NCBI RefSeq assembly: GCF_902813185.1
Contig: NZ_LR778301.1
Coordinates: 1,984,001-2,048,000, forward strand
Direction: 5' to 3'
DNA: 64,000 nt
Origin: Denitratisoma oestradiolicum
GTDB taxonomy: Bacteria; Pseudomonadota; Gammaproteobacteria; Burkholderiales; Rhodocyclaceae
In this document: positions 14,251-61,945 of the stretch, in pieces
Numbering within the stretch: position 1 is the stretch's first letter
How the letters are laid out: every line of letters starts with the position of its first letter
Translations under genes and position numbers: made by a program
The notes under the pieces: model-generated
Databases searched by the model: none
What the model was told of the DNA's origin: nothing
What the model saw: the letters and a program-made list of their open reading frames with translations, nothing else

Positions 14251-17181
14251 ATGAGTCTCCTGTATCGCACTTCTGCCCAGAAGGCCCAACCCCCCGCGCC
14301 AGGAACGCGCGTCCTGATCCGAGACGAAGAATGGCTGGTGCGCAATGCCGACCAATGCGCGTCGGGCGGCTATCAGGTCAGTTGTGTTGGTGTGTCCGAG
14401 ACCGTACGCAATCGGGAAGCCGTCTTCCTGTCCGCCTTGGATGAGGTCGAAGTCATTGATCCACGCGAAACCGAGCTGATCGACGACGCGTCTCCGGGCT
14501 TCACGGCCTCCCTGCTGTATCTCGAAGCGCGCCTGCGCCAGACCGTGCCCACCGGCGATGCGCTGGCGCTGGGGCATATGGGCGTCATGGATGCGCTACC
14601 GTTCCAGCTTGAGCCAACGCACCGCGTACTCAAGCAACTGCGGCCGCGCATCCTGATTGCCGACACGGTGGGCCTGGGCAAGACCCTGGAGGCAGGCATC
14701 CTCACAGCAGAACTGATGCGGCGCGGCAAGGGCCGGCGCATTCTCGTCGTCACCACGCGCGCCATGATGCGGCAGTTCCAGCAGGAATTCTGGAGCCGCT
14801 TTTCGATAGCGCTCACGCGGCTTGACTCGGCGGGGGTCCAACGCATCCGTCGACGGATTCCCGCCAACCACAATCCTTTCCAGTACCTCGACCGCTCCAT
14901 CATCTCGGTCGATACGCTCAAGCGCGATGGCGAGTACCGGCACCACCTGGAAAAAGCCTGGTGGGACATCATCATCATCGACGAAGCACACAACGTCAGC
15001 TACAAGGGCAATCGCACCCAGAGTAATCGCCTGGCCGACTTGCTGGCGCGCCGTTCCGATGCACTGATCCTGCTGACCGCAACTCCGCACAACGGCAAGA
15101 AGGAAAGCTTCGCCAGCCTCGTGCGCATGCTCGATCCGACCGTGCTGCCGCCCAAGGCCGACTACACCAAAGCCGATGTCGAGCACCTGTTCGTCCGCCG
15201 CTTCAAGCGCGATGTGCGCGAGCAGATTCGCCAGGAGTTTCCCGAGCGGGAAGTCTTCAAGTTTTCCGCAGTCGCTACGCCAGCCGAAAACGCCGCCTTT
15301 GACGCCTTGGCAGCGCTCAAGCTGAAGTCCGACGAGGGCACGCGCGAAGGCGTCATGCTGTTCCGCACCACGCTCGAAAAAGCCTTGTTCTCGTCGCCAG
15401 CGGCCTGCCTGCAAACCCTCGACGAACGCCTGCGGCGTACGCGCGCCAAGGATGCCGCCCATCCCGATATCGGGCCGCTGCAAGCCTTGCGTGAGGCAGT
15501 CGCGGCGGTCGGACCCGAGTCATTTTCCAAATTCAAAGAACTTGTAAGCCGCCTGCGTGGCGAAGGCAAGCACGGTGACGACAAGAAGCGCTGGCACTGG
15601 AACGGCAAGGTTGCCGACGATCGTCTCGTCGTCTTCACCGAACGGATCGAGACCCTCAATTTCCTGCGCGAGCATCTTTCACGTGCACTTGGCCTGCCCG
15701 ACAGTGCCGTCGCAATCCTGCACGGGCAACTGCCGGATGATGACATGCAGAAGATCGTCGAAGACTTCGGCAAAACGCTTTCGCCGCTGCGCCTGCTCAT
15801 CGCATCGGACGTTGCTTCCGAGGGTCTGAACCTGCATTACTGCGCCCATAGGCTGGTGCACTTCGATATTCCCTGGTCGCTGATGGTCTTCCAGCAACGC
15901 AACGGCCGGGTCGATCGATACGGGCAGGGGCAGACACCCCTGCTCGCCTACTGCATGACCGATCCGTCCCACGAGAAGATTCGTGGCGACGTGCGCAACA
16001 TCGAGATACTCATCGACAAGGATGCCGAGGCGGCACGGAACATCGGCGACCCGTCAAGTTTCATGGGGCTCTACGACGAAGAACTCGAAGTGGCCAAGGT
16101 TGCTCACGCCATCGAATCCGGTTTGAGCACTGAAGCCTTCGCCGCCGAGTTGTTCAGTGCAGACTCCGAGCTTGATGGCTTTGCCATGCTCGACGATTTC
16201 TTCGAAAGCGCGCCGGTGCTCAGGGATTCGGCAATGGAGCACACGCCGGCATATGCCGGCACGCCGATCAGCGTTCCGCCATCGCTCTTTGCCGACCATT
16301 TCGCCTACGCCAGGAATGGACTCGACTGGTTGCACACGCTCAACCCGCGCGAGAACCCTTCGCCGCGTTGCGACGACGGCAAGTCGTCGCTGGCCTTTCA
16401 GCCCAATGCCGATCTGGGGCAGTTGCTCGAACGGGAACTGGCGCCGGAGATGTGGCCGCGCGACAACGTGTTCGCGCTTTCCGCCGACATTGACGAAGTG
16501 AGCAACGCCATTCGCCATGCCCGTGATACACAGGAGTGGCCGGGCATCCAATATCTCTGGCCACTCCACCCGATATTGCAATGGCTGGATTACAAGATGC
16601 TGGCGATATTCGGCCGGCAGAAAGCGCCTGTCGTGCGCGTGCCGCGCGGCCTTGCCGCCGGTGAGGCGCTCGTCCTGCTGACCGGGCAAATTCCCAACCG
16701 TCGCGGTCAATCCGTGCTGGCCGAGTGGATGGGAGTGCGCCTGACTGTCGCCGATAGCCTTGCCGTGGGCACGCATTCCCTGCCCGAGGTCATGGCACTG
16801 ACGGGGCTTCGTTCCGGCGAACTCATCAACGACGGCGCGCCGCTGGCTGCATCCAGCCTCGAACGCTTGCTTGCACCGGCACTCGACGAAGCGGCGCGGG
16901 TGGTGAGGAACAGGAAGCGCGAGTTCGATGCCTGTTACGGACAAAGCCTGAAGAAGGAACTTGATCACCTGCAGGAACTGCGCAGCCGCCATGCAGCGCA
17001 GTTGGAAATCGATTTCGCCCAGACGCCCGATGCCCTGGCCCAAAGTCGCAAAAAGAAGCGCGAGGCCGATACCGACGACCTTTTCGCCCAATACCAGCAA
17101 TGGGCGCGGCAGACACTGGAACTCGACGACCGGGCGCAATTCACCGTTGTCGCCGTGCTGGTGCCGGGAAGCGCAGCATGA
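14251..17181 (+). CDS. SNF2-family helicase, DrmD-like (DISARM class 1 relative)
   Basis: A 976-aa SNF2/RapA-type DNA translocase, first gene of the six-gene defence cluster. Motifs: Walker A DTVGLGKTLEAG (about 136-147), DEAH box IIIIDEAHN (about 241-249), motif III LILLTATPHNG and motif VI QQRNGRVDRYGQ. The last 200 residues are helical and charged with no known motif. It overlaps the methylase gene in an ATGA junction. SNF2 helicase followed by an Eco57I-like adenine methylase is the class 1 DISARM order (drmD, drmMI), the main basis for the call. An inverted repeat AGTTCG/CGAACT (14113-14127) lies about 125 nt upstream and may be an operator. Confidence 0.75.
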   Translation: MSLLYRTSAQKAQPPAPGTRVLIRDEEWLVRNADQCASGGYQVSCVGVSETVRNREAVFLSALDEVEVIDPRETELIDDASPGFTASLLYLEARLRQTVPTGDALALGHMGVMDALPFQLEPTHRVLKQLRPRILIADTVGLGKTLEAGILTAELMRRGKGRRILVVTTRAMMRQFQQEFWSRFSIALTRLDSAGVQRIRRRIPANHNPFQYLDRSIISVDTLKRDGEYRHHLEKAWWDIIIIDEAHNVSYKGNRTQSNRLADLLARRSDALILLTATPHNGKKESFASLVRMLDPTVLPPKADYTKADVEHLFVRRFKRDVREQIRQEFPEREVFKFSAVATPAENAAFDALAALKLKSDEGTREGVMLFRTTLEKALFSSPAACLQTLDERLRRTRAKDAAHPDIGPLQALREAVAAVGPESFSKFKELVSRLRGEGKHGDDKKRWHWNGKVADDRLVVFTERIETLNFLREHLSRALGLPDSAVAILHGQLPDDDMQKIVEDFGKTLSPLRLLIASDVASEGLNLHYCAHRLVHFDIPWSLMVFQQRNGRVDRYGQGQTPLLAYCMTDPSHEKIRGDVRNIEILIDKDAEAARNIGDPSSFMGLYDEELEVAKVAHAIESGLSTEAFAAELFSADSELDGFAMLDDFFESAPVLRDSAMEHTPAYAGTPISVPPSLFADHFAYARNGLDWLHTLNPRENPSPRCDDGKSSLAFQPNADLGQLLERELAPEMWPRDNVFALSADIDEVSNAIRHARDTQEWPGIQYLWPLHPILQWLDYKMLAIFGRQKAPVVRVPRGLAAGEALVLLTGQIPNRRGQSVLAEWMGVRLTVADSLAVGTHSLPEVMALTGLRSGELINDGAPLAASSLERLLAPALDEAARVVRNRKREFDACYGQSLKKELDHLQELRSRHAAQLEIDFAQTPDALAQSRKKKREADTDDLFAQYQQWARQTLELDDRAQFTVVAVLVPGSAA

Positions 17182-20100
17182 GTTTCACCGCCGCCGGGCT
17201 GGAAAACGTCAACGAGTTCTACAGCCAGCACTACCTCGATGAAATCGTCGAGCGCGACCTCAAGGATCTGTTCGAACGATGGAAGCAGGAAGGCGCGACC
17301 AGCCCGCCGTCGCGGCTGCGTGCATCCATCAACGGCTATTACCGCCAGCACGACAAGTTCCTGCGCGAAAAGACATTGCCCGCACGCCGCGCGCTGCTCG
17401 CCGACCTGACCGAGCCGATTCTCGGCGCGCTCGGCTACACCCTGCAACAGGAATCGCTGGCCCTCGACGACCTGGCGCTGTCGGCGCTGGCCGTTTATCG
17501 CAATGCCAAGGGCACACCGACACTGGTCGTGTTGCCCGCTGTTGCCTCGCATGGCGATGACGACCTCGCCACGCTCGACCTCTCTCCACGTCAGCCGGAC
17601 GAGCCGGAACAGGGTGAGGCCAAGGCTGGCGAGACCTGGGAGGAGGCACTGACCAAGGCGGTCTTTGCCGACAGCGCCCCGCCGCGCTGGGTGCTGCTGG
17701 TATCCCACGACGAATGGCTGCTCATCGACCGCGACAAATGGGGCCGCAAAGCCTTCCTGCGCTTCAAGCTGTCAGAGCTTTTCGCGCTGCGCGACGACAA
17801 ACTGCTGCGCGCCTTCGCCGCGCTGGCCGGGATCGGCTCGGTGCTGCCGGCCGAAGGCATCGCGCTGCTCGACACCCTGACCGACAGTTCGCATCGCCAT
17901 GCCTTCGAGGTCTCGGGCGACCTCAAGTACGCGCTACGCGAGGCCATCGAGCTTATCGCCAACGAGGCCATTCGCCACAAGCGCGAAGTCGCCAAGGAAA
18001 AGGTCTTCGACCGCAACGACATCGACCTTGCCCGCGAACTGTCACGCGAATGTCTGCGCTACATGTACCGGCTGCTCTTTGTTTTCTATCTCGAAGCGCG
18101 ACCCGAACTGGGCTACGCGCCGGTGGAAGCCGAAGCCTATCTCAAGGGCTACAGCCTCGAACATCTGCGCGATCTCGAACAGTTGCCGCTGACGACGGAC
18201 GAGTCGCTGAACGGCAATTACATCCACGAAACCCTGAAGCTGCTGTTCAAGCTGATCTGGGAGGGCTTCCCAGTCGCGGGCGCCGATGGTCAACATGACA
18301 TGCTGCCAACCCTGGGCGACAACACCGGCTTCATCCTGCCGCCCTTGCAGGGGCACCTTTTCGATCCCGATGCGACACCCATCCTCAATTCGGTGCGGCT
18401 GCGCAACCGCGTCCTGCAGCGAGTCATTCGGCTGATGTCGCTGTCACGCGAGGGCTCGAAGCGGCGCGGTCGCATCAGCTACGGCACGCTCGGCATCAAC
18501 CAGCTTGGTTCGGTGTATGAAGCGCTGCTCTCCTTCCGTGGTTTCTTCGCCGAGGAAGAACTCTACGAGGTGCGCCCCGATCCGAACCGCAAGAAGGAAG
18601 ATGCCGGCGAGGAAGGCGACTCCGGCGAAGCGGATGACGATCGTCCCGACACCGATGGCGACGACCTGTTCGGCGATAGCGAACCGGTACGCGCGGAAAA
18701 GCCCAAGAAGGAAGATTTCGATCCGCTCGCCCCGGCCTGGTTCGTCCCGGCGCGCGACATCGGCCAATTCAAGCCCGTCGAAACCCTGTTCGGCGGCGAG
18801 GCGCGCAAGTACGCCAAGGGCACCTTTATCTATCGCCTTGCCGGCCGCGAGCGCGAGAAAAGCGCCTCGTACTACACGCCCGAAGTTCTGACACGCTGTC
18901 TGGTCGAGCATGCAGTGGCCCCGCTGCTCGAAACTTGCGCCAGCGCCGACGATATCCTGCGCCTGACGGTCTGCGAACCCGCGATGGGCAGTGCGGCCTT
19001 CCTCAACGAGGCCATCGACCAGTTGGCCGAAGCCTACTTGCTGAGAAAGGAAAAGGAAGTCGGCGAGACCATCGACCACGACCGGCGCGCCGAGGAGAAG
19101 CAGCGCGTCAAGATGTACCTCGCCGACAACAACGTCTTCGGCGTCGACCTCAACCCGGTAGCAGTGGAACTCGCCGAAGTTTCGCTGTGGCTCAATGCCA
19201 TCTTCAAGGGCGCGCATGTGCCCTGGTTCGGCCTGCAACTCTTCAATGGCAACTCACTGGTTGGCTGCCGGCGCGATGTCTTTACCACCGCGCAGCTTTC
19301 GCCGGGGCGTGGCGAAGGCGGACAGGCGGAGCGCGACTGGCGCGTCGCCGTGCCGCGCCGTGTCGCCAGCGCCGACTTTCGCCAACAGGGCGACATCTGG
19401 CATTTCCTGCTGCCGGCCGACGGCATGGTCAGCGTCACCGACAAAGTCGTCAAGACCCTCGAACCGGTGCGCACGGATGCGATCAAGGTCTGGCGCAAGG
19501 CATTTCTGAAGCCGCTGGAAGCCAACGAAATCGCTCGCGTCGAGAAACTTGCGGAAGGGGTTGAAGCGCTGTGGCGGCAACATGCCGAAGAAGTCGCCCG
19601 CGTGCGCCGCGCTACGGCAGACGAATTGCATGTCTGGCCCGACCCGGCGCCGAATCGTGCGCCGACGACCACCAAGCAGAAGGACGCCATCTACGCCCGC
19701 GAGATGCTTTCCGAACGGGTGCGCAATGCCTCGCCCTACCGACGTCTCAAGCTGGTCATGGACTACTGGTGCGCCCTCTGGTTCTGGCCGGTGACGGGGG
19801 CGGAAGACCTGCCAACACGCGAGGAATGGTGGTTCGATCTGGAGACCCTCATCCTCGGCAATGCAACCCTGGCGCCGGTGGCGGCCACCGACTTCTTTCC
19901 CGAAACCATGCCACAGCAGAACATCGACTTCACCGTAGAGCGCGACCGCTACGGCCACGTCAATCTCGACGTCCTGCTGGAAAACAACCCGCGCCTGAAG
20001 CGCGCCGCCGTCATCGCCGGGACGCAGCGCTTCTTCCACTGGGAACTGGAGTTCGCCGACCTGTTCAAGGCGCGCGGCGGTTTCGATCTGATTCTCGGCA

Positions 20101-22106
20101 ACCCGCCCTGGATCAAGGTGGAGTGGAACGAGAAGGCGATGCTTGCGGAATACTCGCCGCTGTTTGCGCTGCGGAAGTTGTCTGCTAAGGAAGCGGCCGA
20201 CCGGCGCGAGGCGGTGTTTGATGCTGCACCGAATGCGCGGGAAGACTACATCGAGGAATGCGCCGGGCAGGAGGGTATGCAGGCGTTCATGAACGCGACG
20301 CAGAATTTTCCTGTGCTAGTCGGGCAAAAATCCAACCTTTACAAGTGCTTCTTACCAGTGGCTTGGCGTTTAGGTCATCCTGGTCATGGTATTCAGGGAA
20401 TGCTCCATCCAGAAGGTGTCTTCGACGATCCTGATGGTGGTGTTATGCGAGCGCCGACTCTTGCGCGGCTGCGGGCGCACTACCAGTTCATCAACGAATT
20501 GCAGCTTTTCCCCGAGGTGGATCACCACACCAAGTTCAGCATCAACGTTTATGGCCCACCGCAGAAGCCACATTTCTTGCACATCGCCAACCTGTTTGAT
20601 CCGGCGACCATCCGCGCCTGCATCGAACACCCCGGCGGCGGCGCAACACCCGGCATAAAGAGCGAAGCTGGGCGCTGGCAAACGGCGGGGCACAAGAACC
20701 GGATCATCGAGGTTGATACAGCTACATTGGCTATCTTCGCCAAGCTCTACGATGAGCCAGGCACACCGCCGGAGCAGGCACGGCTACCCGCGGTACATTC
20801 GAGCGAACTTGCTGCTGTCTTGTTAACACTGGCTACCTACCCAAGACGCCTTGGTGCGCTCACGGATCAGGACGTGCTTTTTAACGCCACGCATTGGAAC
20901 GAAAAAAATGCACAGACAGATGGCACCATTCGACGGGATACGGGCTTTGTAACAGGCCCAGCAGAATTTGTGCTTTCGGGCCCGCATTTTTTCGTAGGCA
21001 ACCCGTTAAATAAGACTCCAAGAGCAACATGCACAACAAATAGTCACTATGACGTTATCGATTTAACAAGCGCGCCTGATTCGTACCTGCCTCGAGTTAA
21101 CTATCGACCGGCATGCGACTTGGCAACTTACTCTTCAAGAGTGCCAAGAGTAAGTTGGAAAGAGGAAGGAAGAAGGCAGCCAATGGCTCAGTATTATCGA
21201 GTCGCAAATCGCCGAATGTTTAGCGCGACTGCTGAGCGCTCTGTAATCACAACAATTATTCCGAAGGGCTTCAACCACATCAACACAATTGTTTCAGCCG
21301 TATTTCGGGAAAATTCAGTGCTGCTCGATATGGCGGCGCTCACTGCATCTTTGCCGATTGACTTTTTCATTCGTACAACCGGAAAAACTGATCTGTGGGA
21401 GTCAACGCTACGTGCTCTGCCTCTGTTCTCGGGCAGACAACTTCATTTGCGCATTCTCGCCCTCAACTGCCTCACCACCCACTACGCCGACCTCTGGCGC
21501 GAGTGCTGGCAAGACGACTTCCGCCGCGACCGCTTCGCCAGCACCGACCCGCGCCTGCCCGCCGATTTCTTCAGCAAGCTCACCCCGGAATGGACGCGCC
21601 ACTGCGCCCTGCGCAGCGACTACGCCCGCCGCCAGGCGCTGGTGGAAATCGACGTGCTCGCCTCGCTGGCCCTCGGCCTGACGCTCGACGAACTGCTGAC
21701 CATCTACCGCGTGCAGTTCCCGGTGATGCGCCAGTACGAAGCCGACACCTGGTACGACACCAATGGCCGCATCGTCTTCACCGCCAGCAAGGGCCTGGTC
21801 GGCGTCGGCCTGCCGCGCAAGGCCGGTAAGCGCGATATGCCCTGCGAGATCATCTTCCCGGACGGCCAGACCCAATCCCGCCCCCTGGGCTGGGAGGACG
21901 CACGGAAACTGCCGGATGGCAGCCGCATTCGCCGTCCCGTCAGCACCGACTTTTTGCCCGGCGGCCCGGTGCAGCGCATTGTCGAATACCTTGCCCCCTT
22001 CACCCTTGCCAATCGGGAAGCGGACTACCGCACGGCCTGGCCGGTGTTCGAAAGCCGGTCAGGCAGCCCCGCGCCTTTGGCCGGGGTTACTGAAACAGTG
22101 GCCTGA
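17178..22106 (+). CDS. Eco57I-like N6-adenine methylase, DrmMI-like
   Basis: A 1642-aa protein; ATG 17178 overlaps the stop of the previous gene. The N-terminal 590 residues include a DNA-binding and charged linker (acidic stretch GEEGDSGEADDDRPDTDGDD). The class-gamma methylase core shows motif I CEPAMGSAAFLNEA (about 599) and motif IV ILGNPPWIKVEW (about 973-984), an NPPW adenine-N6 catalytic motif. No nuclease motif is visible, so restriction would come from other subunits. The stretch from about 20300 to 21430, covering the likely target-recognition domain, is clearly lower in GC than its flanks. In DISARM the equivalent enzyme marks host DNA as self. Confidence 0.75.
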   Translation: MSFTAAGLENVNEFYSQHYLDEIVERDLKDLFERWKQEGATSPPSRLRASINGYYRQHDKFLREKTLPARRALLADLTEPILGALGYTLQQESLALDDLALSALAVYRNAKGTPTLVVLPAVASHGDDDLATLDLSPRQPDEPEQGEAKAGETWEEALTKAVFADSAPPRWVLLVSHDEWLLIDRDKWGRKAFLRFKLSELFALRDDKLLRAFAALAGIGSVLPAEGIALLDTLTDSSHRHAFEVSGDLKYALREAIELIANEAIRHKREVAKEKVFDRNDIDLARELSRECLRYMYRLLFVFYLEARPELGYAPVEAEAYLKGYSLEHLRDLEQLPLTTDESLNGNYIHETLKLLFKLIWEGFPVAGADGQHDMLPTLGDNTGFILPPLQGHLFDPDATPILNSVRLRNRVLQRVIRLMSLSREGSKRRGRISYGTLGINQLGSVYEALLSFRGFFAEEELYEVRPDPNRKKEDAGEEGDSGEADDDRPDTDGDDLFGDSEPVRAEKPKKEDFDPLAPAWFVPARDIGQFKPVETLFGGEARKYAKGTFIYRLAGREREKSASYYTPEVLTRCLVEHAVAPLLETCASADDILRLTVCEPAMGSAAFLNEAIDQLAEAYLLRKEKEVGETIDHDRRAEEKQRVKMYLADNNVFGVDLNPVAVELAEVSLWLNAIFKGAHVPWFGLQLFNGNSLVGCRRDVFTTAQLSPGRGEGGQAERDWRVAVPRRVASADFRQQGDIWHFLLPADGMVSVTDKVVKTLEPVRTDAIKVWRKAFLKPLEANEIARVEKLAEGVEALWRQHAEEVARVRRATADELHVWPDPAPNRAPTTTKQKDAIYAREMLSERVRNASPYRRLKLVMDYWCALWFWPVTGAEDLPTREEWWFDLETLILGNATLAPVAATDFFPETMPQQNIDFTVERDRYGHVNLDVLLENNPRLKRAAVIAGTQRFFHWELEFADLFKARGGFDLILGNPPWIKVEWNEKAMLAEYSPLFALRKLSAKEAADRREAVFDAAPNAREDYIEECAGQEGMQAFMNATQNFPVLVGQKSNLYKCFLPVAWRLGHPGHGIQGMLHPEGVFDDPDGGVMRAPTLARLRAHYQFINELQLFPEVDHHTKFSINVYGPPQKPHFLHIANLFDPATIRACIEHPGGGATPGIKSEAGRWQTAGHKNRIIEVDTATLAIFAKLYDEPGTPPEQARLPAVHSSELAAVLLTLATYPRRLGALTDQDVLFNATHWNEKNAQTDGTIRRDTGFVTGPAEFVLSGPHFFVGNPLNKTPRATCTTNSHYDVIDLTSAPDSYLPRVNYRPACDLATYSSRVPRVSWKEEGRRQPMAQYYRVANRRMFSATAERSVITTIIPKGFNHINTIVSAVFRENSVLLDMAALTASLPIDFFIRTTGKTDLWESTLRALPLFSGRQLHLRILALNCLTTHYADLWRECWQDDFRRDRFASTDPRLPADFFSKLTPEWTRHCALRSDYARRQALVEIDVLASLALGLTLDELLTIYRVQFPVMRQYEADTWYDTNGRIVFTASKGLVGVGLPRKAGKRDMPCEIIFPDGQTQSRPLGWEDARKLPDGSRIRRPVSTDFLPGGPVQRIVEYLAPFTLANREADYRTAWPVFESRSGSPAPLAGVTETVA

Positions 22107-22137
22107 ATTCGGCAGATTCTCAGCCTAGATCGGCGGC

Positions 22138-22154
22138 GCGCCGAGGCGCTTTTT
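22138..22154 (+). terminator. Weak terminator-like hairpin after the methylase
   Basis: GCGCC and GGCGC arms (22138-22142, 22145-22149) are followed by five T residues (22150-22154). The loop as drawn is only 2 nt, so the real stem is probably 4 bp with a 4-nt loop. With the promoter just downstream it suggests the cluster is read as two transcripts. Confidence 0.35.
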
Positions 22155-22165
22155 AGTGCTTTATA

Positions 22166-22194
22166 TTGACAAGTATAAATTAGTACGAGAATAT
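22166..22194 (+). promoter_or_regulatory. Promoter for the second half of the defence cluster
   Basis: A consensus -35 TTGACA (22166-22171) and GAATAT (22189-22194) at 17-nt spacing; a perfect TATAAT at 22192-22197 gives a 20-nt spacing. The region is far more AT-rich than the genes on either side. A TTTATA/TATAAA inverted repeat spans the -35 box and could be an operator. Confidence 0.55.
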
Positions 22195-22224
22195 AATTAC
22201 AGATAAATTCCGGTCGAGGTTGCC

Positions 22225-23376
22225 ATGACGCAGGAGCAAAGCCGCTTTTCGTTTCACCGCCAAGCCTTGGCGGAAGATCTGTGCAGCAGCCTGGAAGGCA
22301 AGGGTCTGGTCGATAACTCGTCCGGCCTGTTCCTGGCGGCCCCCCGCCGTACCGGCAAGAGCACCTTTCTGCGCGAAGACCTGGTGCCCGAGGCCACGCG
22401 CCGCAACTGGTCGTGCATTTATGTCGACCTGTGGTCCGACCGATCGCGCGACCCGGCGTTGCTGCTTGCCGAGGCGATCAAGAGCGCTATCGCCGAACAC
22501 TTGGGCGCCATCGCAAAAATGGCCAAGTCGACCGGGCTCGACAAGCTCAACATCATGGGTGCCCTCAGCTTCGATTTGTCCAAGGTAGGCCAGGCCGGCG
22601 GCATCACCCTGGCGGACGCCCTGGCGCATCTTGCCGACAAGGCGGGCCAACCTGTCTTGCTGATCGTCGATGAGGCGCAGCATGCGCTGACCAGCGACGA
22701 AGGCGTCAATGCCATGTTCGCGCTGAAGGCAGCACGCGACAGCCTCAACCAGGGCAAGGCCGGGACACGCCTGTTTCTGGTCTTCACCGGCTCGCACCGC
22801 GACAAGCTGGCGCACCTGGTTCTGAAGAAAGACCAGCCGTTTTTCGGCTCGCAGGTCACCCCCTTCCCGCTGCTCAAGCAGGACTTCACGGATGCCTATA
22901 CCGACTGGGTGAATGCTCGGCTTGCTGCCGGCAATCAGTTCGGCAAGCAGGACATGTACGAAGCCTTCCAATGGGTTGGCCATCGGCCCGAATTGCTGAA
23001 AACGATGATTGGCGAAATCGCGCTGGATCTGGGGACCGCCGGCAATCTGGGGCAAATGCTCAAGCAGGGCGCCGAAGGCATACGCAACCGGATCTGGGAC
23101 AGCATGGAAAGCGAAGTTGCCGGCCTGACCGAATTGCAGCAGGCGGTGCTTGAGGTCATGGTGAAGAAGGGCAAGGACTTTTCTCCCTTCACCGAGGATT
23201 CGCTGAAAGCCTACCGCGAGATCCTAGGCCAGGAGGCGCTTGCCGCGCACACGGTGCAGGCGGCGCTGGACGGCTTGCGCGAGAAGAACCTGATCTGGCG
23301 CTCCGCACGTGGCGCCTACGCCCTGGAAGACGAAAGCCTGGCGCAGTGGTTCAGCCAGATACGCGGGAATCGGTGA
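22225..23376 (+). CDS. AAA/ORC-like ATPase of the defence cluster
   Basis: A 383-aa P-loop ATPase. Walker A is LAAPRRTGKSTF (about 38-48) and Walker B PVLLIVDEAQHAL (about 144-156); a sensor-like LFLVFTGSHRDKL follows. The C-terminal third (from about 290) reads like a winged-helix tail (LQQAVLEVMVKKGKDF), as in ORC/Cdc6-like and transposition-regulator ATPases. It has its own promoter and lies 50 nt before the giant helicase gene. No such ATPase belongs to canonical DISARM. A loading or signalling ATPase for the helicases is a reasonable guess from context. Confidence 0.65.
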   Translation: MTQEQSRFSFHRQALAEDLCSSLEGKGLVDNSSGLFLAAPRRTGKSTFLREDLVPEATRRNWSCIYVDLWSDRSRDPALLLAEAIKSAIAEHLGAIAKMAKSTGLDKLNIMGALSFDLSKVGQAGGITLADALAHLADKAGQPVLLIVDEAQHALTSDEGVNAMFALKAARDSLNQGKAGTRLFLVFTGSHRDKLAHLVLKKDQPFFGSQVTPFPLLKQDFTDAYTDWVNARLAAGNQFGKQDMYEAFQWVGHRPELLKTMIGEIALDLGTAGNLGQMLKQGAEGIRNRIWDSMESEVAGLTELQQAVLEVMVKKGKDFSPFTEDSLKAYREILGQEALAAHTVQAALDGLREKNLIWRSARGAYALEDESLAQWFSQIRGNR

Positions 23377-23426
23377 TGTCCGAAATCACCACGCTTGCAG
23401 TCCTGTCGGACTAAGCGGCCCCAATC

Positions 23427-26400: not shown

Positions 26401-29400
26401 TTTATTTGTCGGCGGAAATCCAGCGTGTGTTCGCCCGCGAACACACCGGCCTGCTCGATAGACGAACGCGTGAAGGTGTCGAGCGTTCCTTCATGGCCAA
26501 GCTGGCACGACCAGGAAAGGTGAATCTGCTCTCGGCGACGCCGACACTCGAAATGGGTATCGATATCGGCGATCTCTCGGCAACGTTGCTCTGTTCGGTG
26601 CCGCCGGCCCAGGCAAACTATCTGCAACGTGCCGGTCGCGCCGGTCGCGCAACAGGGAACGCATTTCTGCTCACCTTCGCGGCAGCGCGCCCGCACGATC
26701 TCTACTTCTGGGCGGCACCACGCGAGATGGTGGCCGGAAACGTCGCGTCGCCCGGTGTCTTCCTCAACGCGTCGGCGGTGCTGGAACGACAGCTCACTGC
26801 TTTTGCACTGGATGCCTGGGTTCGGGAAGTCGGCAAAAAGGCAAAGATCCCCCATACCATCCGCCCTGTGCTCGGTGCGGTGATGAAACCGAACACGGCG
26901 CAATTTCCCTACCCCTGGCTGGATTATGCAGAGCGCAATCGGTCCTTGCTGCTGGAAAGGTTCATTCGTCTGTTCGATCACGGCGCCAATGTCCTGACCG
27001 CAGAAACCTGCGAGTGGCTGTCACGGTTCATTGCTGGCGATTCGGGCACCGAGGGCAGTCTGCCCTGGAAGATTGTCAGTCGCCTGCGCTCCATCGCCGA
27101 AGACGTCGATGAGTTCCGCAAGCGCCGCGAACGCGTCGATGTGGAAATCAAGAAGGTCGATGCGATGCCGGTAAAAGGCGAGAGCGACGAAGAAGAACTT
27201 GCCGAACTGAAGCAGGAAAGCGCAGCACTGGGCAAACTGATCGCCGGCATTCTCGACCGCGCGACGTTCAATGTGCTGACCGATGAAGGACTGCTGCCGA
27301 ACTACGCCTTCCCGGAACAGGGAGTGCTATTGCATTCCGTCATTCTGCGCAACCGCAAGACAGGCGCTGCGGGTGATGCTGGGGGCGAAGCGCTGGCGCC
27401 ATTGACCCTTGAGTATGAACGTCCGGGCTCTGCCGCGATTACCGAGTTGGCGCCGGGCAGCCTGTTTTATGCCGAAAGCCGCAAGGTGACGATCGAGCAG
27501 GTTGATGTATCGAAGGATCGCCCGTCGAAGTGGCGCTTCTGTCGCCAATGCGCATATTGCGAACCCGAGGGTCTCGGCATCAGCCACACGGCATGCCCTC
27601 GCTGTGGCGATCCGGTGTGGAGCGACATGGGCCGCGTGCGCGACATGCTGCGATTGACCAAGGTTTATGCGCGAACGCCCGATCACCTCGCACGTATCGC
27701 AGATGACTCCGACGAGCGCGAACGGCGCTTCTTTGTACGGCAGGCGCTAGTTGATAGTCCGCCGGATGCGGTGCGGCAGGCGTTTGCGATTGAGCGTCCC
27801 GAGTTTCCGTTTGCTTTCGAGTTCCTGAATCGAGTGTCGTTCCGCGAGGTCAATTTTGGCGAGCGTCAGCCCGATGGCGCGCCGATGATCATCGCCGGCG
27901 TCGAATTGCCGCGCCCCGGCTTTGCCATCTGCCCTGACTGCGGAACGCTGCAACGGCGTCGTCGCCAGGGCGAGGAATTCCGCAATCACGCGCCCTATTG
28001 TCCACATCGCAAGGATGAGAGTGCTCCGGCTCAGCAATGCGTCTTCCTGTACCGCGAATTCGACAGCGAGGGTATTCGTCTCTACCTGCCCGAAGCAACT
28101 TTTGGCGGCGCCGATGAACGCTTGCAGTCTTTTGTCGCCGCGTTGCAGCTCGGATTGGCCAAGCGTTTTCGTGGCGCGGTGGATCATCTGCGCATCGCAC
28201 TGGATATCCGGCTTGCCACGGGCGAAGAATCGCCGCGTCAGTATCTGGTGATCTACGACAGCGTGCCTGGCGGTACCGGATACCTGAAGGAACTGATGCG
28301 TGACGAGCAGCCGCTCTTCGAGGTGTTTGAAGCCGCACTGGCGGCGATGGATACCTGCGAATGCAATCACGATCCGGACAAGGACGGTTGCTACCGCTGC
28401 CTGTTTGCGTACCGCAACAGCCATGACCGTGAGGAGATTTCGCGCCGGATGGCGCAGAAGCTATTGCGCGAGATTCTCGACCATCGCGGGCAGTTGAAGC
28501 CCGTCGACGGCCTTTCGAAACTCAAACCCAGCAATCCTCTTTTCGATAGCGAACTGGAAGCGCGGTTTGTCGAAGCCTTGCGCAGGCCGGGTGCCGATCT
28601 ACACGATCGCTTCGTCGTGACCGAGGTGCTGGTCAAGGGCAAACCGGGATACCAGGTATCGTGCGGTGGACCACGTGGGCGTCGGTGGCGGCTTGAACCC
28701 CAGGTGGAGCTTTGGGTCGCCGACGGGGTAGTCATTCCGAGCAAGCCGGATTTCGTGTTCTGGCCGGACGACGACAGTGGAGACTCGCCGATCGCCGTGT
28801 TTCTCGATGGCTGGAAGTATCACCGGGACATCATCCCCGTCGACCTGGCGAAACGGATGGCCATTGCAAAGAGCGGGCGTTTTTCGGTATGGACGCTAAC
28901 CTGGGCGGATGTTGACCACTGGTTGAATCCCAAGGCAGATACGCCTGTTTCTCCCTGGCCGACATTACTGGCTTCGGACAAGGACGTAGTCGGCAACCTG
29001 CTGAGGAACCTCGGTCTCAGCCACATGTTGGGCTTCAGGGCGCTACCGACGATGGCGCAGATGCGTACCCGTCTCTGTGGGCTCGACCATGAAATGATGC
29101 GCCGGCACGCGGCGGTCCTCGGCCTCGGTGTCTTGTTGCCACACGGCGATCCAACTGTGGCCGCACAGGTTGCGACTTCGTCGTTCGCGATTCAATTGCA
29201 GGATCTGGAACTGCCTGGACTCCCTCAACAAGCCGACAGCCGCGTTGGCGGGCGACGCCTGGCGGAAGACATCATTCTTGTCGCTGCAGGAATCAATGCG
29301 GATCAGGCCAAACAGATGATGAGCGGGCATGTAAATCGCGAAGCGGAGCCAGGGGTGCTGATTCGCTGGCATGCCGATGAAGGGATTCCTGAAGCCGATT

Positions 29401-29849
29401 TACTCGCCGCATGGCATGGCTTATGGCAGACAGGCAATCTCCTGTTTCCGCTGACGCGCTGTTGGGCAGGCGCCGACGACGGAGCAGACTGGAGCGCGTT
29501 CCATGATGCACCACTGGTGCGCGCGCCGATCAGCGGTTCGATGGACCTGGCGTGGATCGAGGTGGCGGAGTTGGTGTCTGCGGACCTGCAGGGTCTGGTC
29601 GTCTCTCTGAGTTCGGACGGATTCGAGGCCCCCATTGTCGGGTTTGAGCTTCTGGACGACAAAGGCAGGGTCGTGTCCGATGCCGAGCTTGCCTGGCAAG
29701 AGCACCGGATAGCTGTGTTTCTTGCGGATTGCGCGACGAGCCTGATCAAGGAATTTTCTGATCGAGGATGGCGTTGTTTCGTCGTTGGCGACACGGAGCT
29801 TGAGGCGAAACTAATAGCCGCACTTAAGGGCAAAGAGAGGAAAGCATGA
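23427..29849 (+). CDS. Giant DEAD/DEAH helicase with DUF1998 and a Vsr-like nuclease segment
   Basis: A 2140-aa superfamily 2 helicase. N-terminal half: Walker A VATGTGSGKTECF (about 90-102), Walker B YLVVDELHTF (a DELH box), motif III VGTSATLGD and a C-terminal RecA domain with NYLQRAGRAGRATGN. Several Cys pairs may bind zinc: HCRDCHATGWG, CVSCGTLHTIEHPTCGHCG, DCPYCGG, CRQCAYC with CPRCGD, and CECNHDPDKDGCYRCLFAYRN of the DUF1998 region. Near residues 1770-1800, KPDFVFWP and IAVFLDGWKYH resemble the core of Vsr/PD-(D/E)XK nucleases. The last 340 residues are unassigned. It may combine the roles of DrmA and DrmB plus a nuclease. It overlaps the next gene in an ATGA junction. Confidence 0.7.
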   Translation: MQPLIVANEVRRCVADFLATAFPSTTPGFQGLIDRFLAHPANLFRGPYLSVALPFRAGHEAGTRFGWLPEGFTPHAHQTRAWDRLTGDDALSTLVATGTGSGKTECFLFPVLEHCREQAALGRRGIKAVILYPMNALATDQAARLAKQILGTPALAGIRAGLYVGETPDEESDSVRVLLDGSFSLITDRAELRRNPPDILLTNYKMLDFLLIRADDVGLWAHNRPDTLRYLVVDELHTFDGAQGTDLACLIRRVKARLDTPPRHLICVGTSATLGDDSEGSLLDFASDVFGEKVDDKAVIGEDRLSVGEYLADCTVESMNWPRPSDADVLDSNRHASMADYLASQYRLWFDEVVTADEVEQREWRVALGERLKSHVAFQNLLRDLDKLGRRAVPIDDLVTQLSRRLRADEQPSYVARWLESLVALISHARRKKLPTKAAIDSDDDLLPLLSVRVELWLRELRRMVARMATEPVLRHQADLGTADKGVHLPVIHCRDCHATGWGATIPKTSPNQLHADLQAFYTAFFAEDVSTRFIYPSGDTPANRRFFEPKKVCVSCGTLHTIEHPTCGHCGAGSDGGPGLLRVDIAANRKEVRRNGSPLTVAHHDCPYCGGHKTLTILGSQAASLASVAISQLFASRFNADKKLIAFSDSVQDAAHRAGFFAARTWRLNLRPAMAQVIAAADASGKPLALADLYPAFAAFWQERLGIAGFVANFLPPQLNWLRDAETLSETGALPEGSDIPRLMGNVLPWVVLAEFGQDAHVGRTLPATLTAAVAVDEERRQRAIRDLAGRLKEEVAALAAVSDAEAERFIDGLISRMQEIGAWWDKGLVFYARQGARAFAYRKNPAEYRLLSGPRPPRFLTLPEYFNCDSVQLDTSGIFRDWAYKSFTALAAVALGADAMVSEIYRLALLALQEAGIAHAEEGEKEVAVWGLEPGVFTLRAGATRWQCASCQQSSVAATDVDLTGEPCRRLGCTGVLVPTTDVGGFYRRLYLSAEIQRVFAREHTGLLDRRTREGVERSFMAKLARPGKVNLLSATPTLEMGIDIGDLSATLLCSVPPAQANYLQRAGRAGRATGNAFLLTFAAARPHDLYFWAAPREMVAGNVASPGVFLNASAVLERQLTAFALDAWVREVGKKAKIPHTIRPVLGAVMKPNTAQFPYPWLDYAERNRSLLLERFIRLFDHGANVLTAETCEWLSRFIAGDSGTEGSLPWKIVSRLRSIAEDVDEFRKRRERVDVEIKKVDAMPVKGESDEEELAELKQESAALGKLIAGILDRATFNVLTDEGLLPNYAFPEQGVLLHSVILRNRKTGAAGDAGGEALAPLTLEYERPGSAAITELAPGSLFYAESRKVTIEQVDVSKDRPSKWRFCRQCAYCEPEGLGISHTACPRCGDPVWSDMGRVRDMLRLTKVYARTPDHLARIADDSDERERRFFVRQALVDSPPDAVRQAFAIERPEFPFAFEFLNRVSFREVNFGERQPDGAPMIIAGVELPRPGFAICPDCGTLQRRRRQGEEFRNHAPYCPHRKDESAPAQQCVFLYREFDSEGIRLYLPEATFGGADERLQSFVAALQLGLAKRFRGAVDHLRIALDIRLATGEESPRQYLVIYDSVPGGTGYLKELMRDEQPLFEVFEAALAAMDTCECNHDPDKDGCYRCLFAYRNSHDREEISRRMAQKLLREILDHRGQLKPVDGLSKLKPSNPLFDSELEARFVEALRRPGADLHDRFVVTEVLVKGKPGYQVSCGGPRGRRWRLEPQVELWVADGVVIPSKPDFVFWPDDDSGDSPIAVFLDGWKYHRDIIPVDLAKRMAIAKSGRFSVWTLTWADVDHWLNPKADTPVSPWPTLLASDKDVVGNLLRNLGLSHMLGFRALPTMAQMRTRLCGLDHEMMRRHAAVLGLGVLLPHGDPTVAAQVATSSFAIQLQDLELPGLPQQADSRVGGRRLAEDIILVAAGINADQAKQMMSGHVNREAEPGVLIRWHADEGIPEADLLAAWHGLWQTGNLLFPLTRCWAGADDGADWSAFHDAPLVRAPISGSMDLAWIEVAELVSADLQGLVVSLSSDGFEAPIVGFELLDDKGRVVSDAELAWQEHRIAVFLADCATSLIKEFSDRGWRCFVVGDTELEAKLIAALKGKERKA

Positions 29850-31936
29850 GCACGGCACCCAAGATTGCACTGTCGGATGATTTCTTGAAATCATTCGCCG
29901 CGATTCCCCGAGATAAGCAGCAAGCAGTGCTGAAGTTCGTGGCACTGTTCCGCCAGAATCCACGGGCACCCGGCATCAACTACGAGACGATTCACAATGC
30001 CGCAGATTCCAACATGCGCTCGGTGCGAATCGATCAAGCCTTGCGGGGCATCATTCTCAAACCGGTCAGCGGTGAGGTGTATTGCCTGCTGTGGGTAGAC
30101 CGACATGACGATGCCTATCGCTGGGCAGCCACGCATCGCGTCGCGATTCACCCGGACCTCGGCAGCATTCAGGTCTTCGCCGTTGAAGCGGTTGCCGAAT
30201 CAGCTGCTGTGCCTCCAAGACCGCCCGAGGCCAAGGGCTTCTTCGACTCACTGAAGGATCGCGAAATTCGTCGCATGGGCGTTCCCGAGGAAGCCTTGGC
30301 TCGTGTGCGAGCCATCACCACTGAAGATGGCCTCGAATCGCTTCAGGCTACCTTGCCTGAAGACGCGTTTGAAGCACTGTACCTGTTCGCTGCTGGTGAC
30401 TCCTACGACAAGATCATCGCCGATCACGAGGCGGTCGCAGGCGTTGTCGATACGGAGGATTTCGGCAAGGCATTGGATCAGGATGCGACCCGGCGTCACT
30501 TCGTCGTGATCACCGACGACAGTGACCTCGATGGACTTCTGGCGGCGCCGCTGGAACGTTGGCGTGTGTTCCTGCATCCCAGTCAACGCCGGATGGTGGA
30601 TAGGGACTGGAACGGACCGGTACGCGTGCTCGGCGGTGCCGGAACGGGCAAGACGGTCGTGGCAATGCATCGGGCGGCCTGGCTGGCACGGAAATATCGC
30701 GACTTGCCGGGAAAGCCGGTTCTCTTCACGACTTTCACCCGAACCTTGGCTGACGACATCCGCTCCCATGTCGCTTCACTTTGTACGCCGCAGGAAATCG
30801 AAAAGATCGCTGTCGTCAATATGGACCAGTGGGCGATCAGCCTGTTGCGTCGATTCGGTTATCAGCATGAACTGCTGTACGACGACGGGCGTCGCCGCGA
30901 GTTCTGGCGGCTGGCGCTGACTCGGGCACCAGGCAATTGCACGTTCCCGACGGCATTCTTTCGCGCCGAGTACGAACGCGTGATATTGCCGAATGGCTGT
31001 GAAACGGGTGAGGACTACATGCGCGCCAGCCGGCTTGGCCGAGGCGGACAACTTGGTCGCGTGCAGCGCAAAGCGCTGTGGCCGGTCTTTGCCGAATATC
31101 GCGCCCAACTGCATGCCGCCAACCTTAGGGAACCGGAGGAAGCCTTCCGCGACGCACGTGTCCTACTCCAACTGGAAAAGGAGTCCCTGGGCATTCGGTC
31201 GATCATCGTCGATGAGACGCAGGACATGAGCGCTGCAGCGCTTGGCTTGCTGAGAGCGGCGATACCGACCGCAGAAAACGATCTGTTTCTGGTCGGTGAT
31301 GCCCATCAGCGCATATATCGCCACAAGGTGGCCCTTTCCAAGGTCGGCATCGAAGTCCGTGGCCGCAGCCGCCGACTTCGCGTGAATTACCGGACTACGG
31401 ATGAAATCCGGCGCTGGGCCGTGGCGCAACTGGAAGGATGCGAGGTTGACGACCTCGATGGTGAATTGGATACGCTAAAGGGCTACCGTTCCCTGACCCA
31501 CGGCGGGATGCCTGACATCACTTCGTTTTCGGATGCAGTATCGGAAAAATCGCGGCTGCTTGCCGTACTCGCGGAACTCACGGGAGATAACCTCGACTCA
31601 TCCAACGTTTGCCTGGTGTGTCGCACCAACGAAGAACTTGATCATTACCAGAGCACGCTGGAAGCGGATGGAATCAAGACGCTCAAGCTTGACAGGAATA
31701 CGGCCGACGACCGGAGCGTTGAAGGCATTCGCCTCGCCACCATGCATCGCGTCAAGGGACTCGAATTTGAGGTTGTGATCATTGTCGGGTATCGATCCCC
31801 CGATTACTACGCGGAACATTTCTCCCGCGACGAAGATGCCGGAGTCGTGTCGGATTCAATACTCAGCGAGCGGTGCTTGCTACATGTTGCAGCGACCCGC
31901 GCCAAGCGACATCTGGTTTGTTTATTGAGGACCTGA
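29846..31936 (+). CDS. UvrD-like helicase with a RelE-like N-terminal domain
   Basis: A 696-aa protein. Residues 1-115 resemble a RelE/ParE-type fold (SDDFLKSFAAIPRDKQQAVL, then RSVRIDQALRGIILKP and YRWAATHRVAIHP). An SF1 helicase core follows: Walker A VLGGAGTGKTVVAMHRA, DEXX IIVDETQDMSAAA, motif III LFLVGDAHQRIYRHK, motif IV LRVNYRTTDEIRRWA, motif V TMHRVKGLEFEVVII and motif VI LHVAATRAKRHL. This RelE-helicase layout is seen in other bacterial genomes, where the N-domain may bind nucleic acid and need not be a toxin. Its gene overlaps the giant helicase gene and sits 4 nt before the GHKL gene, so all three are co-translated. Confidence 0.7.
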   Translation: MSTAPKIALSDDFLKSFAAIPRDKQQAVLKFVALFRQNPRAPGINYETIHNAADSNMRSVRIDQALRGIILKPVSGEVYCLLWVDRHDDAYRWAATHRVAIHPDLGSIQVFAVEAVAESAAVPPRPPEAKGFFDSLKDREIRRMGVPEEALARVRAITTEDGLESLQATLPEDAFEALYLFAAGDSYDKIIADHEAVAGVVDTEDFGKALDQDATRRHFVVITDDSDLDGLLAAPLERWRVFLHPSQRRMVDRDWNGPVRVLGGAGTGKTVVAMHRAAWLARKYRDLPGKPVLFTTFTRTLADDIRSHVASLCTPQEIEKIAVVNMDQWAISLLRRFGYQHELLYDDGRRREFWRLALTRAPGNCTFPTAFFRAEYERVILPNGCETGEDYMRASRLGRGGQLGRVQRKALWPVFAEYRAQLHAANLREPEEAFRDARVLLQLEKESLGIRSIIVDETQDMSAAALGLLRAAIPTAENDLFLVGDAHQRIYRHKVALSKVGIEVRGRSRRLRVNYRTTDEIRRWAVAQLEGCEVDDLDGELDTLKGYRSLTHGGMPDITSFSDAVSEKSRLLAVLAELTGDNLDSSNVCLVCRTNEELDHYQSTLEADGIKTLKLDRNTADDRSVEGIRLATMHRVKGLEFEVVIIVGYRSPDYYAEHFSRDEDAGVVSDSILSERCLLHVAATRAKRHLVCLLRT

Positions 31937-31940
31937 GACG

Positions 31941-33698
31941 ATGACCAAGAACAAAAGCGCTCGATTCCAGGTGGATTCTCGCCTCGCGAGATTACTGAGC
32001 CAGGAATATTCTTCTACTGAAAAGGCGCTCAAGGAACTGATAGATAACGCCTGGGATGCCGATGCAGACTCAGTAAGCGTCACGCTACCAGCTCCAATGA
32101 GTGACGAACCAATCGTGGTCGTCGATGATGGATGCGGAATGACTACCGAAGAAGTGAGGCGGCACTACCTTGCCATCGCTGCCGACCGTCGAATACATCG
32201 CGGGGATCGTTCAACCAATAAACAGCGTCTGATCAAGGGGCGTAAAGGTGTTGGGAAGTTTGCCGGGCTAATGGCGGCTTCCATAATGACGCTTGAAACA
32301 TCTGCACGTGGTGTTCTGACCAGCTTCACCTTGCGACTCGGTGATCTTGCCGAAGTAGACGATATTGAGCACCTGCCTATCGAGCTTGTTACTCAACCCT
32401 GTGATGATTCTTCTCGCGGTACGCGAATTACTCTGCACGGCCTGCATTCAAATCTGGCATTCCCGGACCCGAAAAAGTTTCGTCAAATTCTCTTGCAAGA
32501 ATACGGCCGCGAAGCTGGGTTCGTCGTTAGCGTGAACGACAAGACTCTTGGCGTTGATGATGTCGACGGGAGCTACCAGAACCAAACACTGACTATTGAG
32601 GATGTGGGTGACGTACGCCTCGCCTTTGCGATCGGCGAAACCAGGTCGGTCTCCCGACAGCCAGGAATCGTCATCCGCGTCGACGGAAAGACTGTAGGCA
32701 AGCCTTCTTTCTTCGGTTTGGATGAACAAGAGGATTTCCCACCAAAACTGCTGAAGCGTCTCTACGGTGAAATTGATGCCGACGGTCTTCGCGATCACGT
32801 TACGGCCGGTTGGGACAGCCTTGTCGAGAACAGTGAGTTGCTGGCCCGCGTCACCGAAGCGATAAGGCCAGTGGTATTTACCGCTTTCAAGGAACGGTAT
32901 GGGCGTGAAATTCAACTCGCTCAGGCCCGCTTGCGCCGTGAAGTTCATGAACGACTGGCGGCGTTGCCAGAGCACCGGCGTGAATATGCCGAAAGAGCCG
33001 TAAAGAAAGTCCTCGACCGGTTCTTTGGAGAGCCGCCGGAAAAGATTGAGCCGTATGTCTTTGTCCTGCTTGAGGCTATTGAACGCTCTGACTATGGGGC
33101 CGTCGTAGAGCATCTGGCCGAAGCTCAGCGACGCGATGTGGCCACGCTGGCGGACGCACTCGAACGGTTCGGTTTGGCTGATATGGCGCATTTGGTGGAG
33201 CAGGCAAATGCCAGGCAGGCGTTCTTGGATCGCTTGGAGTCATTGACCCTCGCTCCGGAAACGCTGGAGGCGACCATGCACAAGGCTATAGAGCGGAACC
33301 TATGGATATTTGGCCCAGAGTATTCACTTTTCAGCTCGAACAAAACATTGCAGCGCCATGCCGACGAAATGCTTGGCAAACAGTTCGTAGGTGAACGGGC
33401 AAATAATCGGCCCGACCTATTACTGAATGAAAACCTCAATGGCGAATGTCTCCTGATCGAGTTCAAGCGACCTTCTCACCCTCTGAATCGAGACGACTAT
33501 ACCCAAGCGACGAACTATCGTCACGATTTGGCGAAGATCGTAAGTAAGCCGATACGTGTGTTGGTAGTTGGTGGCCGACGCTCACCGGACTTTCCGACCA
33601 CTAATCGTGAACCAGACGTAAGCGTCGCCACGTTCGGTGACGTTATTTCGTCCGCGCGGCGGCAACTGGAGTGGCAGTTGAAGGTCCAGGAAGTGTGA
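31941..33698 (+). CDS. GHKL (Hsp90/MutL-like) ATPase fused to a PD-(D/E)XK nuclease
   Basis: A 585-aa protein, last gene of the cluster. The Bergerat ATP fold shows the N box KELIDNAWDADAD (Glu32, Asn36), G1 VVDDGCGM (Asp62/63) and G2 KGRKGVGKFAGL (about 99-110). The middle is helical. The C-terminus has NRPDLLLNEN (Asp near 491), then CLLIEFKRPSHP (Glu near 507, Lys near 509) and a downstream Gln/Tyr-rich helix (YTQATNYRHDL), a good PD-(D/E)XK nuclease signature. The pairing of an ATP-driven clamp with a nuclease is used in several antiphage proteins. I do not recognise a named family. Confidence 0.7.
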   Translation: MTKNKSARFQVDSRLARLLSQEYSSTEKALKELIDNAWDADADSVSVTLPAPMSDEPIVVVDDGCGMTTEEVRRHYLAIAADRRIHRGDRSTNKQRLIKGRKGVGKFAGLMAASIMTLETSARGVLTSFTLRLGDLAEVDDIEHLPIELVTQPCDDSSRGTRITLHGLHSNLAFPDPKKFRQILLQEYGREAGFVVSVNDKTLGVDDVDGSYQNQTLTIEDVGDVRLAFAIGETRSVSRQPGIVIRVDGKTVGKPSFFGLDEQEDFPPKLLKRLYGEIDADGLRDHVTAGWDSLVENSELLARVTEAIRPVVFTAFKERYGREIQLAQARLRREVHERLAALPEHRREYAERAVKKVLDRFFGEPPEKIEPYVFVLLEAIERSDYGAVVEHLAEAQRRDVATLADALERFGLADMAHLVEQANARQAFLDRLESLTLAPETLEATMHKAIERNLWIFGPEYSLFSSNKTLQRHADEMLGKQFVGERANNRPDLLLNENLNGECLLIEFKRPSHPLNRDDYTQATNYRHDLAKIVSKPIRVLVVGGRRSPDFPTTNREPDVSVATFGDVISSARRQLEWQLKVQEV

Positions 33699-43500: not shown

Positions 43501-43860
43501 TACGGGGCCTCCCCCCTGCAAGTGTTCATCTCACCAGCACCATAATTATCCTGAGTCAAGTAGGGGGCATTTCATCACATCCCGCCTTCATGAGATACCC
43601 CCCCAATAGCCCGGCAATGCTCCTGGCGACTCGCTTGGATCGAATATGTCGGAGCGCCTTATAACCTTTGTGATACGTGCCTCCAGTGAATACAGCGCCG
43701 AAACAATGTCAGAGCGGTGTTCCTCTGGAATGACGCTAGCCTTTCTTCTACTGGTAATCATCCCCTTCGATTCTTTCGACGGATGAGTTGAAGATCAGGC
43801 TGATGACTCAAGCGTAGGGGCATAATCGCGCATTGACCACTGACCAGGACGGAGTCTCGA
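43501..43860. promoter_or_regulatory. Divergent intergenic region between the Druantia-like and SbcCD-like operons
   Basis: 360 nt with no gene. It must carry the promoters for both divergent operons. A possible -10 CATAAT lies near 43821-43827 for the rightward genes, and GGACGGAG precedes their first ATG. No repeat or operator stood out. Confidence 0.35.
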
Positions 43861-57540: not shown

Positions 57541-58419
<879 letters not shown>

Positions 58420-58430
58420 CACTCCCTCGG

Positions 58431-58474
58431 TCCGGCCGCCGACCGGAACGTCGGCACGGTGGCCGGATGCTTTT
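58431..58474 (+). terminator. Strong hairpin between cld and the reductase genes
   Basis: Outer stem TCCGGCC/GGCCGGA (58431-58437, 58461-58467), inner stem GCCGAC/GTCGGC (58438-58443, 58450-58455), then a short T-run (58471-58474). It could end most cld transcripts and let some read into the reductase genes, keeping cld output above that of the reductase. Confidence 0.6.
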
Positions 58475-58512
58475 CATCCAAGGGACTTATGTAATTCATT
58501 CGGGGAAACATC

Positions 58513-61056: not shown

Positions 61057-61071
61057 GCAAGGAGAGCCGCC

Positions 61072-61938: not shown

Positions 61939-61945
61939 CAGGGAT

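Follow-up and report, generated by a model that had tools for sequence, protein, structure and literature searches.

An ARMADA type II-like defence locus in Denitratisoma oestradiolicum and a recurrent cargo slot between armB and armC

Six co-directional genes of Denitratisoma oestradiolicum raise the question of whether they form a defence system of their own or an elaboration of one already named. They occupy positions 14251-33698 (+ strand) of the 64,000-nucleotide stretch of contig NZ_LR778301.1 (assembly GCF_902813185.1) that was analyzed here, referred to below as the window, and their open reading frames (ORFs) encode proteins of 976, 1668, 383, 2140, 696, and 585 aa. The original prediction was that this set of six enzymes is an undescribed system that departs from DISARM. 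The gene set itself was confirmed, with the ORFs at these coordinates and with Pfam and PADLOC (a collection of defence-gene profiles) returning matching enzyme families. The six ORFs nevertheless look like a known type, the four-gene core of ARMADA type II, accompanied by two guest genes that are here called g3 and g6. The new point of the analysis is the position of g3, which is a recurrent cargo slot between armB and armC.

14251..17181, + strand: armA, BrxHII/RapA-like SNF2 helicase, 976 aa (Pfam SNF2/Helicase_C)
17178..22106, + strand: armB, PglX-like/type IIG-like adenine methyltransferase (Pfam Eco57I/N6_Mtase)
22107..23426, + strand: cargo slot between armB and armC, 1320 bp in the window, 0 to 13.6 kb in relatives
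22225..23376, + strand: g3, guest AAA ATPase, ORC/Cdc6-STAND-like, with a C-terminal winged-helix-like part, 383 aa
23427..29849, + strand: armC, YprA-family DEAD helicase with MZB/DUF1998 and a C-terminal nuclease-like region, 2140 aa
29550..29780, + strand: C-terminal tail domain of ArmC, about 77 aa, common to tailed ZorE (Zorya II)
29846..31936, + strand: armD, UvrD/GajB-like helicase with a RelE-like N-terminal region (by orthology only), 696 aa
31941..33698, + strand: g6, GHKL ATPase fused to a Shedu-like PD-(D/E)xK region, 585 aa
33768..40112, - strand: DruE of Druantia III, 2114 aa, convergent with g6 (PADLOC DruE3, 2296 bits)
40037..43521, - strand: DruH of Druantia III, two overlapping ORFs (PADLOC DruH3 matches both pieces)

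Identity of the six genes

The main text of a recent preprint describes ARMADA type II as a BrxHII/RapA-like ArmA, a PglX-like ArmB, a YprA-like ArmC, and a RelE-GajB-like ArmD (Bell et al., 2025, PMC12458937), and the name is used in the same sense in the available text of a review (PMC12904381) and of one Druantia preprint. Four of the six families in the window are thus already part of a described system. Alignment of the window's proteins with their counterparts in seven plasmid loci (L008-L014) gave identities of 38-44% (ArmA), 38-49% (ArmB), 33-42% (ArmC), and 38-46% (ArmD). Orthology and gene order agree with the Escherichia coli plasmid locus L008; in the window the order is A-B-C-D, with g3 inserted after B. 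The proteins of L008 reproduce the published numbering of the eight residues that Bell et al. mutated, and the window and the other six loci have the identical residue at each of the eight positions. The Walker residues K144 and D244 of ArmA correspond to K136 and D236 of the E. coli protein; N1001 (NPPW) and G630 (GxG) of ArmB, K103 and D234 of ArmC, and K269 and D456 of ArmD are invariant. Because of this orthology, the gene order, the eight conserved residues, and the adjoining Druantia III, we assign genes 1, 2, 4, and 5, on sequence grounds, to ArmA, ArmB, ArmC, and ArmD of ARMADA type II.

Parts of these proteins are annotated less directly. The Pfam matches of ArmC are DEAD, Helicase_C, and MZB, the last placing DUF1998 in the same protein as the helicase; its nuclease segment has no Pfam match, and six residues there (E1711, D1775, D1794, H1799, D1806, and R1810) are invariant among the eight aligned ArmC proteins and compatible with a putative Vsr-like nuclease. 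ArmD matches UvrD-helicase and UvrD_C, and its N terminus aligns with that of E. coli ArmD; neither Pfam nor a profile search for PDB relatives turned up RelE. The putative RelE region of ArmD and nuclease of ArmC are assigned solely by orthology to the proteins of Bell et al.

The prediction also took the cluster to be tightly packed, which holds for three junctions: an ATGA overlap joins armA and armB (17178-17181), a 4-nt overlap joins armC and armD (29846-29849), and 4 nt separate armD from g6. It does not hold for g3, which lies 118 bp behind armB and 50 bp ahead of armC. Since the ATGA overlap is at 17178, armB probably starts there and not at 17100, where its ORF opens. No promoter match was found ahead of g3 on the strand of that gene, and matches in the region are no more numerous than in shuffled sequence.

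DISARM class 1 has in common with the cluster an SNF2 helicase, an adenine methylase, and a DUF1998 theme, and the profile scores reflect this: ArmA matches DrmD, DrmA, and BrxHII, and ArmB, which matches REase_MTase_IIG (845 bits), also matches DrmMI (190 bits). However, DUF1998 (MZB) is part of the helicase protein itself, the best PADLOC family for ArmC is DruE, far above DrmA, ArmD is an addition, and the Pfam matches of the six proteins include neither a PLD domain nor a standalone DUF1998 protein. The departure from DISARM, with no DrmC and no separate DrmB, therefore stands as predicted, and we reject a DISARM variant as extremely improbable. Druantia III has points in common with the cluster, DruE being the best family for ArmC, adjoining the cluster, and occurring with DruH inside the slot of a relative (L142), but the cluster has SNF2, methylase, and UvrD proteins and no DruH among its PADLOC matches.

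The closest described system remains ARMADA type II of E. coli NCTC 12900/ATCC 8739, for which the preprint text gives the same four core genes, order, and catalytic residues with Druantia III nearby, and reports that many E. coli carry the two systems side by side. By comparison, the window adds an AAA ATPase between armB and armC and a GHKL-Shedu protein behind armD, and its Druantia III operon is convergent with the cluster, whereas it is co-directional in the E. coli strain described there. The two DruH pieces (40037-42517 and 42457-43521, - strand) are in different frames, next to a full-length DruE ORF. Beside the Druantia operon lie genes for a metallophosphatase and an AAA_27/SMC-like protein (43861-48599, + strand; 4-nt overlap; SbcCD-like). 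Elsewhere in the window are overlapping (8 nt) OLD nuclease and UvrD helicase genes (4731-9006, - strand) that are Gabija-like and 31-33% identical to the two Gabija genes occupying the L131 slot. Genes for chlorite dismutase and then a molybdopterin oxidoreductase, an Fe-S protein, and a delta subunit (57565-62710, + strand), which we read as chlorate or perchlorate respiration, are found near the defence island. Actin-like ALP (49725) and RepA_C (13118) genes are present although the contig exceeds 2 Mb.

The two guest genes

The Pfam match of g3 is AAA_22. That of g6 is GHKL HATPase_c_3, with the GHKL motif residues present; its SduA_C match is weak (23.5 bits, under the cut-off of 27). PADLOC SduA gives 2e-4, D492, E507, and K509 are invariant, and a 67% identical relative (P0069) is named a Shedu SduA-domain protein by its source. 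At the level of architecture, g6, with its putative nuclease part, closely resembles VcSduA of Shedu type I-D (formerly paraMORC3), which the available text of PMC12137116 describes as a GHKL N terminus and a PD-(D/E)xK C terminus in one protein; g6 differs in belonging to an ARMADA operon, where it follows armD after 4 nt, and in its sub-cut-off SduA_C score. In L192, g6 is found in what looks like a type I restriction-modification locus, and a slot protein of L144 resembles g6 in the GHKL part alone (30% over residues 5-170). Among viral contigs, no relative of g3 and a single relative of g6 (43%) were found.

Could all six genes be one integrated new system, with g3 and g6 as obligatory ARMADA components? 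All six are co-directional, and g6 begins only 4 nt behind armD. Among the ARMADA loci fetched first, however, tblastn (E ≤ 1e-8) found g3 or g6 in none besides the window, and both are missing from the nearest relatives of the window as well (ArmC 74-79% identical). Conversely, seven plasmid loci with homologues of g3 or g6 (L001-L007) have no Arm gene within the fetched stretch. According to the preprint text, the four-gene E. coli set is enough for defence. Given this distribution and the composition of ARMADA type II, we reject the undescribed six-gene system and regard obligatory roles for g3 and g6 as very improbable. Our reading is an armA-armB-armC-armD operon in which g3 is seated in the slot between armB and armC and g6 is appended behind armD, to which, on comparative evidence, we give a probability of roughly 0.85.

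A recurrent slot between armB and armC

We surveyed the 80 loci most similar to the window's ArmD, near-copies included (L020 and L021, for example, are 99.5% identical). The gap between armB and armC could be measured in 51 loci, the window among them (53 measured rows minus two refetched loci), after leaving out contig ends, loci with armB off the contig or strand, those without armC, and those in which the order differs (L012 and L078 are examples). It is at most 50 bp in 13 loci, 51-500 bp in 3, and greater than 500 bp in 35, of which 20 exceed 3000 bp; in L138, one of the 35, it was measured to an armB 3' remnant, the full armB lying elsewhere on the opposite strand. Counted by junction rows, in which a few loci appear twice, gaps of more than 500 bp are found at 5/29 armA-armB, 39/55 armB-armC, and 1/84 armC-armD junctions. 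Ten further regions of the window's own family were fetched; three had already been counted, two had no visible armB, and all five new ones (L183, L186, L187, L189, and L190) have an armB-armC gap of more than 500 bp.

On a tree of 56 ARMADA ArmD proteins, explaining the label "occupied" takes at least 8 changes, 5 of them forced by well-supported branches, against a mean of 14.1 in shuffles. Slot occupancy is thus inherited yet also changing, because the label is more clustered than in shuffles and still requires at least 8 changes. The sister loci of Haematobacter (L013, occupied) and Gemmobacter (L014, closed) differ in this way. In E. coli, ArmC-ArmD matches were found in 525 of 5426 genomes, and the seam is closed in 514, judged by the presence of ≥80% of a 600-bp fragment that spans the uninterrupted seam, a criterion under which joined pieces could conceal an insert of up to about 800 bp.

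Pairwise comparisons place the edges of the slot. The nearest relatives of the window (L017/L182 and L183, ArmC 79% and 74%) have three small ORFs in place of g3, the first Gp49/HigB-like by Pfam and the second, as we read it, HigA-like; homology with the window ends in the last armB codons and restarts at the armC start. From the armC ATG onward, identity between the loci of Pseudomonas cichorii (L019) and P. lactis (L020) is 96.9% over 17.9 kb, and their slot proteins both have a GmrSD N-terminal domain (Pfam) without significant blastp similarity to each other (best E, 0.014). Since armB has diverged between these two loci as well as the slot (aligned parts 73-80% identical), the exchanged piece must be larger than the slot and extend at least partly into armB; its sharp edge is the armC start. 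Partial copies of the armB 3' end (L135 and L138) and of the armC 5' end (L140) at long seams suggest that recombination at these ends is a route of cargo gain. At the slot edges of the window, a search for repeats found short imperfect matches only and no inverted pair.

In the literature searched, which for the preprint comprises the main text while its supplements may list the slot, we found no description of it. That main text contains neither "accessory" nor GHKL, and its passages on inserted, embedded, toxin, or variable elements, among those listed, describe no slot; its statement that ARMADA type II has a "strict gene order" we counted against our reading. No paper on nested defence systems was found. 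A parallel is BREX, for which PMC12839542, in the text available, reports nuclease, Schlafen, GmrSD, OLD/TOPRIM, and Shedu-type genes within core loci and proposes them as auxiliary or backup effectors; unlike the ARMADA slot, no single preferred junction is named there, and the word ARMADA is absent from the main text.

Slot contents and the ArmC tail

Genes in the slot run with the operon in 71/77 cases and against it in 6, compared with 56/119 with the operon in the 4 kb downstream of armD in 47 loci (Fisher p, 1e-11); the ORFs, which are non-independent, were called by a purpose-built gene finder that had learned armC codon usage, and two slots gave none. In L131, L141, and L086/L142, no more than about 60 bp separate the final slot gene from the armC start. 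Apart from the window, 34 slots are occupied, and in 19 of them at least one gene could be named. Some slots hold whole systems: Gabija, accompanied by Schlafen (L131), Zorya II as ZorA-ZorB-ZorE (L141), and Druantia III as DruH and DruE (L142). A DruE-like helicase is found in L136 and a distant DruE-like match in L138. Others hold GmrSD (L019, L020, L075, and, by identity, L021), HNH (L018), a protein kinase (L025), a Schlafen AlbA_2-HATPase (L069), Gp49/HigB-like (L017), a weak Abi_C (L034), DUF3644 (L027), AAA_21 (L047 and L128), HipA (L130), or a GHKL protein (L144); gene calls are poor in some long slots (L142-L145). A pooled scan of 75 of the 93 slot proteins called at ≥80 aa, which is the source of information on most of the other 15 slots, gave 5 Schlafen, 5 AAA_15, and 2 PIN matches in Pfam, and in PADLOC the commonest families include AriA, GajA, PtuA, and AbiLi. 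These matches come from slot proteins alone, and as the loci lie in defence islands, occupancy of the slot is by itself no evidence of function.

One feature connects ArmC to a slot guest. PADLOC ZorE2 matches ArmC residues 2040-2123 (6.7e-8), and phmmer with a ZorE tail as query reaches the window (E, 4e-6). This domain of about 75 aa, present in ArmC and in a tailed branch of ZorE, is also seen in proteins of L058, L130, L133, L136, and L049. Copies lie at L141:6122-6340, L087:2939-3160, and L039:9687-9899, and a 13-row alignment leaves only P28, W49, and W74 of the window's piece invariant. From the common tail one might guess that an interaction surface is shared by some of the effectors seated in the slot.

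A stricter form of this idea, in which the tail of ArmC or ZorE marks ArmD partners by docking, is not supported as a rule. A tail-bearing ORF directly precedes ArmD in 82 of the 85 ArmD loci with upstream sequence (three further loci lack such sequence), and 101/117 tail-bearing ORFs are ArmC-like, so that most of these cases are ArmC itself. In L039, L041, and L057, where no ArmC was found, the order is ZorA-ZorB-ZorE(tail)-ArmD, an arrangement of Zorya II plus ArmD, and L049, also without ArmC, has a 1623-aa tailed protein. Against the rule, an ArmD (E ≤ 1e-60) occurs in 1/5 genomes with tailed ZorE, three of the five from one genus, and in 1/6 with tail-less ZorE, and two plasmids with tailed ZorE have no ArmD within the stretch examined.

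How would such a locus work? In E. coli, the preprint text reports, all four ARMADA II genes are needed (deletions and point mutants) and defence is direct and non-abortive, and DruE is described in the available text of PMC13192584 as loading on ssDNA-containing DNA and working as a helicase-nuclease. From their families, ArmA and ArmB may combine translocase and methylase in one module for marking or inspecting DNA. ArmC, by analogy with its relative DruE, would load on ssDNA-containing phage replication intermediates, unwind them, and cut with its putative C-terminal nuclease, and ArmD, as a UvrD-type helicase, could extend the unwinding. The guest g3 might be an ATP-switch regulator or sensor, and g6 a second-line nuclease that works autonomously and is gated by ATP bound to its GHKL part, like VcSduA. 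ARMADA II would then consist of two stable pairs, AB and CD, with other defence genes seated at the seam in operon direction, perhaps as backup or extra effectors. Its strongest form, a two-part AB/CD chassis with a dedicated internal seat whose guests, complete Zorya II, Gabija, and Druantia III included, are co-transcribed and form a second line guarding the core or dependent on it, we put forward tentatively, as a possibility that falls short of even odds.

The competing account gives the seam no special role and takes AB and CD as two separate operons of one system, with neutral island passengers between them. It would accommodate L012, where CD lies ahead of AB, the full armB on the opposite strand in the genomes of L078 and L079, and the divergence of L019 and L020 on the armB side as well as in the slot; the window also has a terminator-like hairpin after armB, though shuffled sequence contains such hairpins at least as often. 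Neutral passengers would not be expected to follow the operon strand so much more often than genes downstream of armD, or to end so close to armC in L131, L141, and L086/L142. We consider this account possible but doubtful.

Under the reading of an ARMADA type II operon with a cargo slot, comparison with relatives suggests that the system contains an internal slot where bacteria keep swapping other defence genes. A fixed seam, closed in E. coli and with lineage-specific partners elsewhere, would preserve a natural record of systems working together. The synergy of Druantia and ARMADA reported in E. coli would become testable as a question of arrangement, by comparing nested with merely adjacent systems. 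Most catalogues list phage-defence systems singly, and the seam would also supply untested candidates for their partners.
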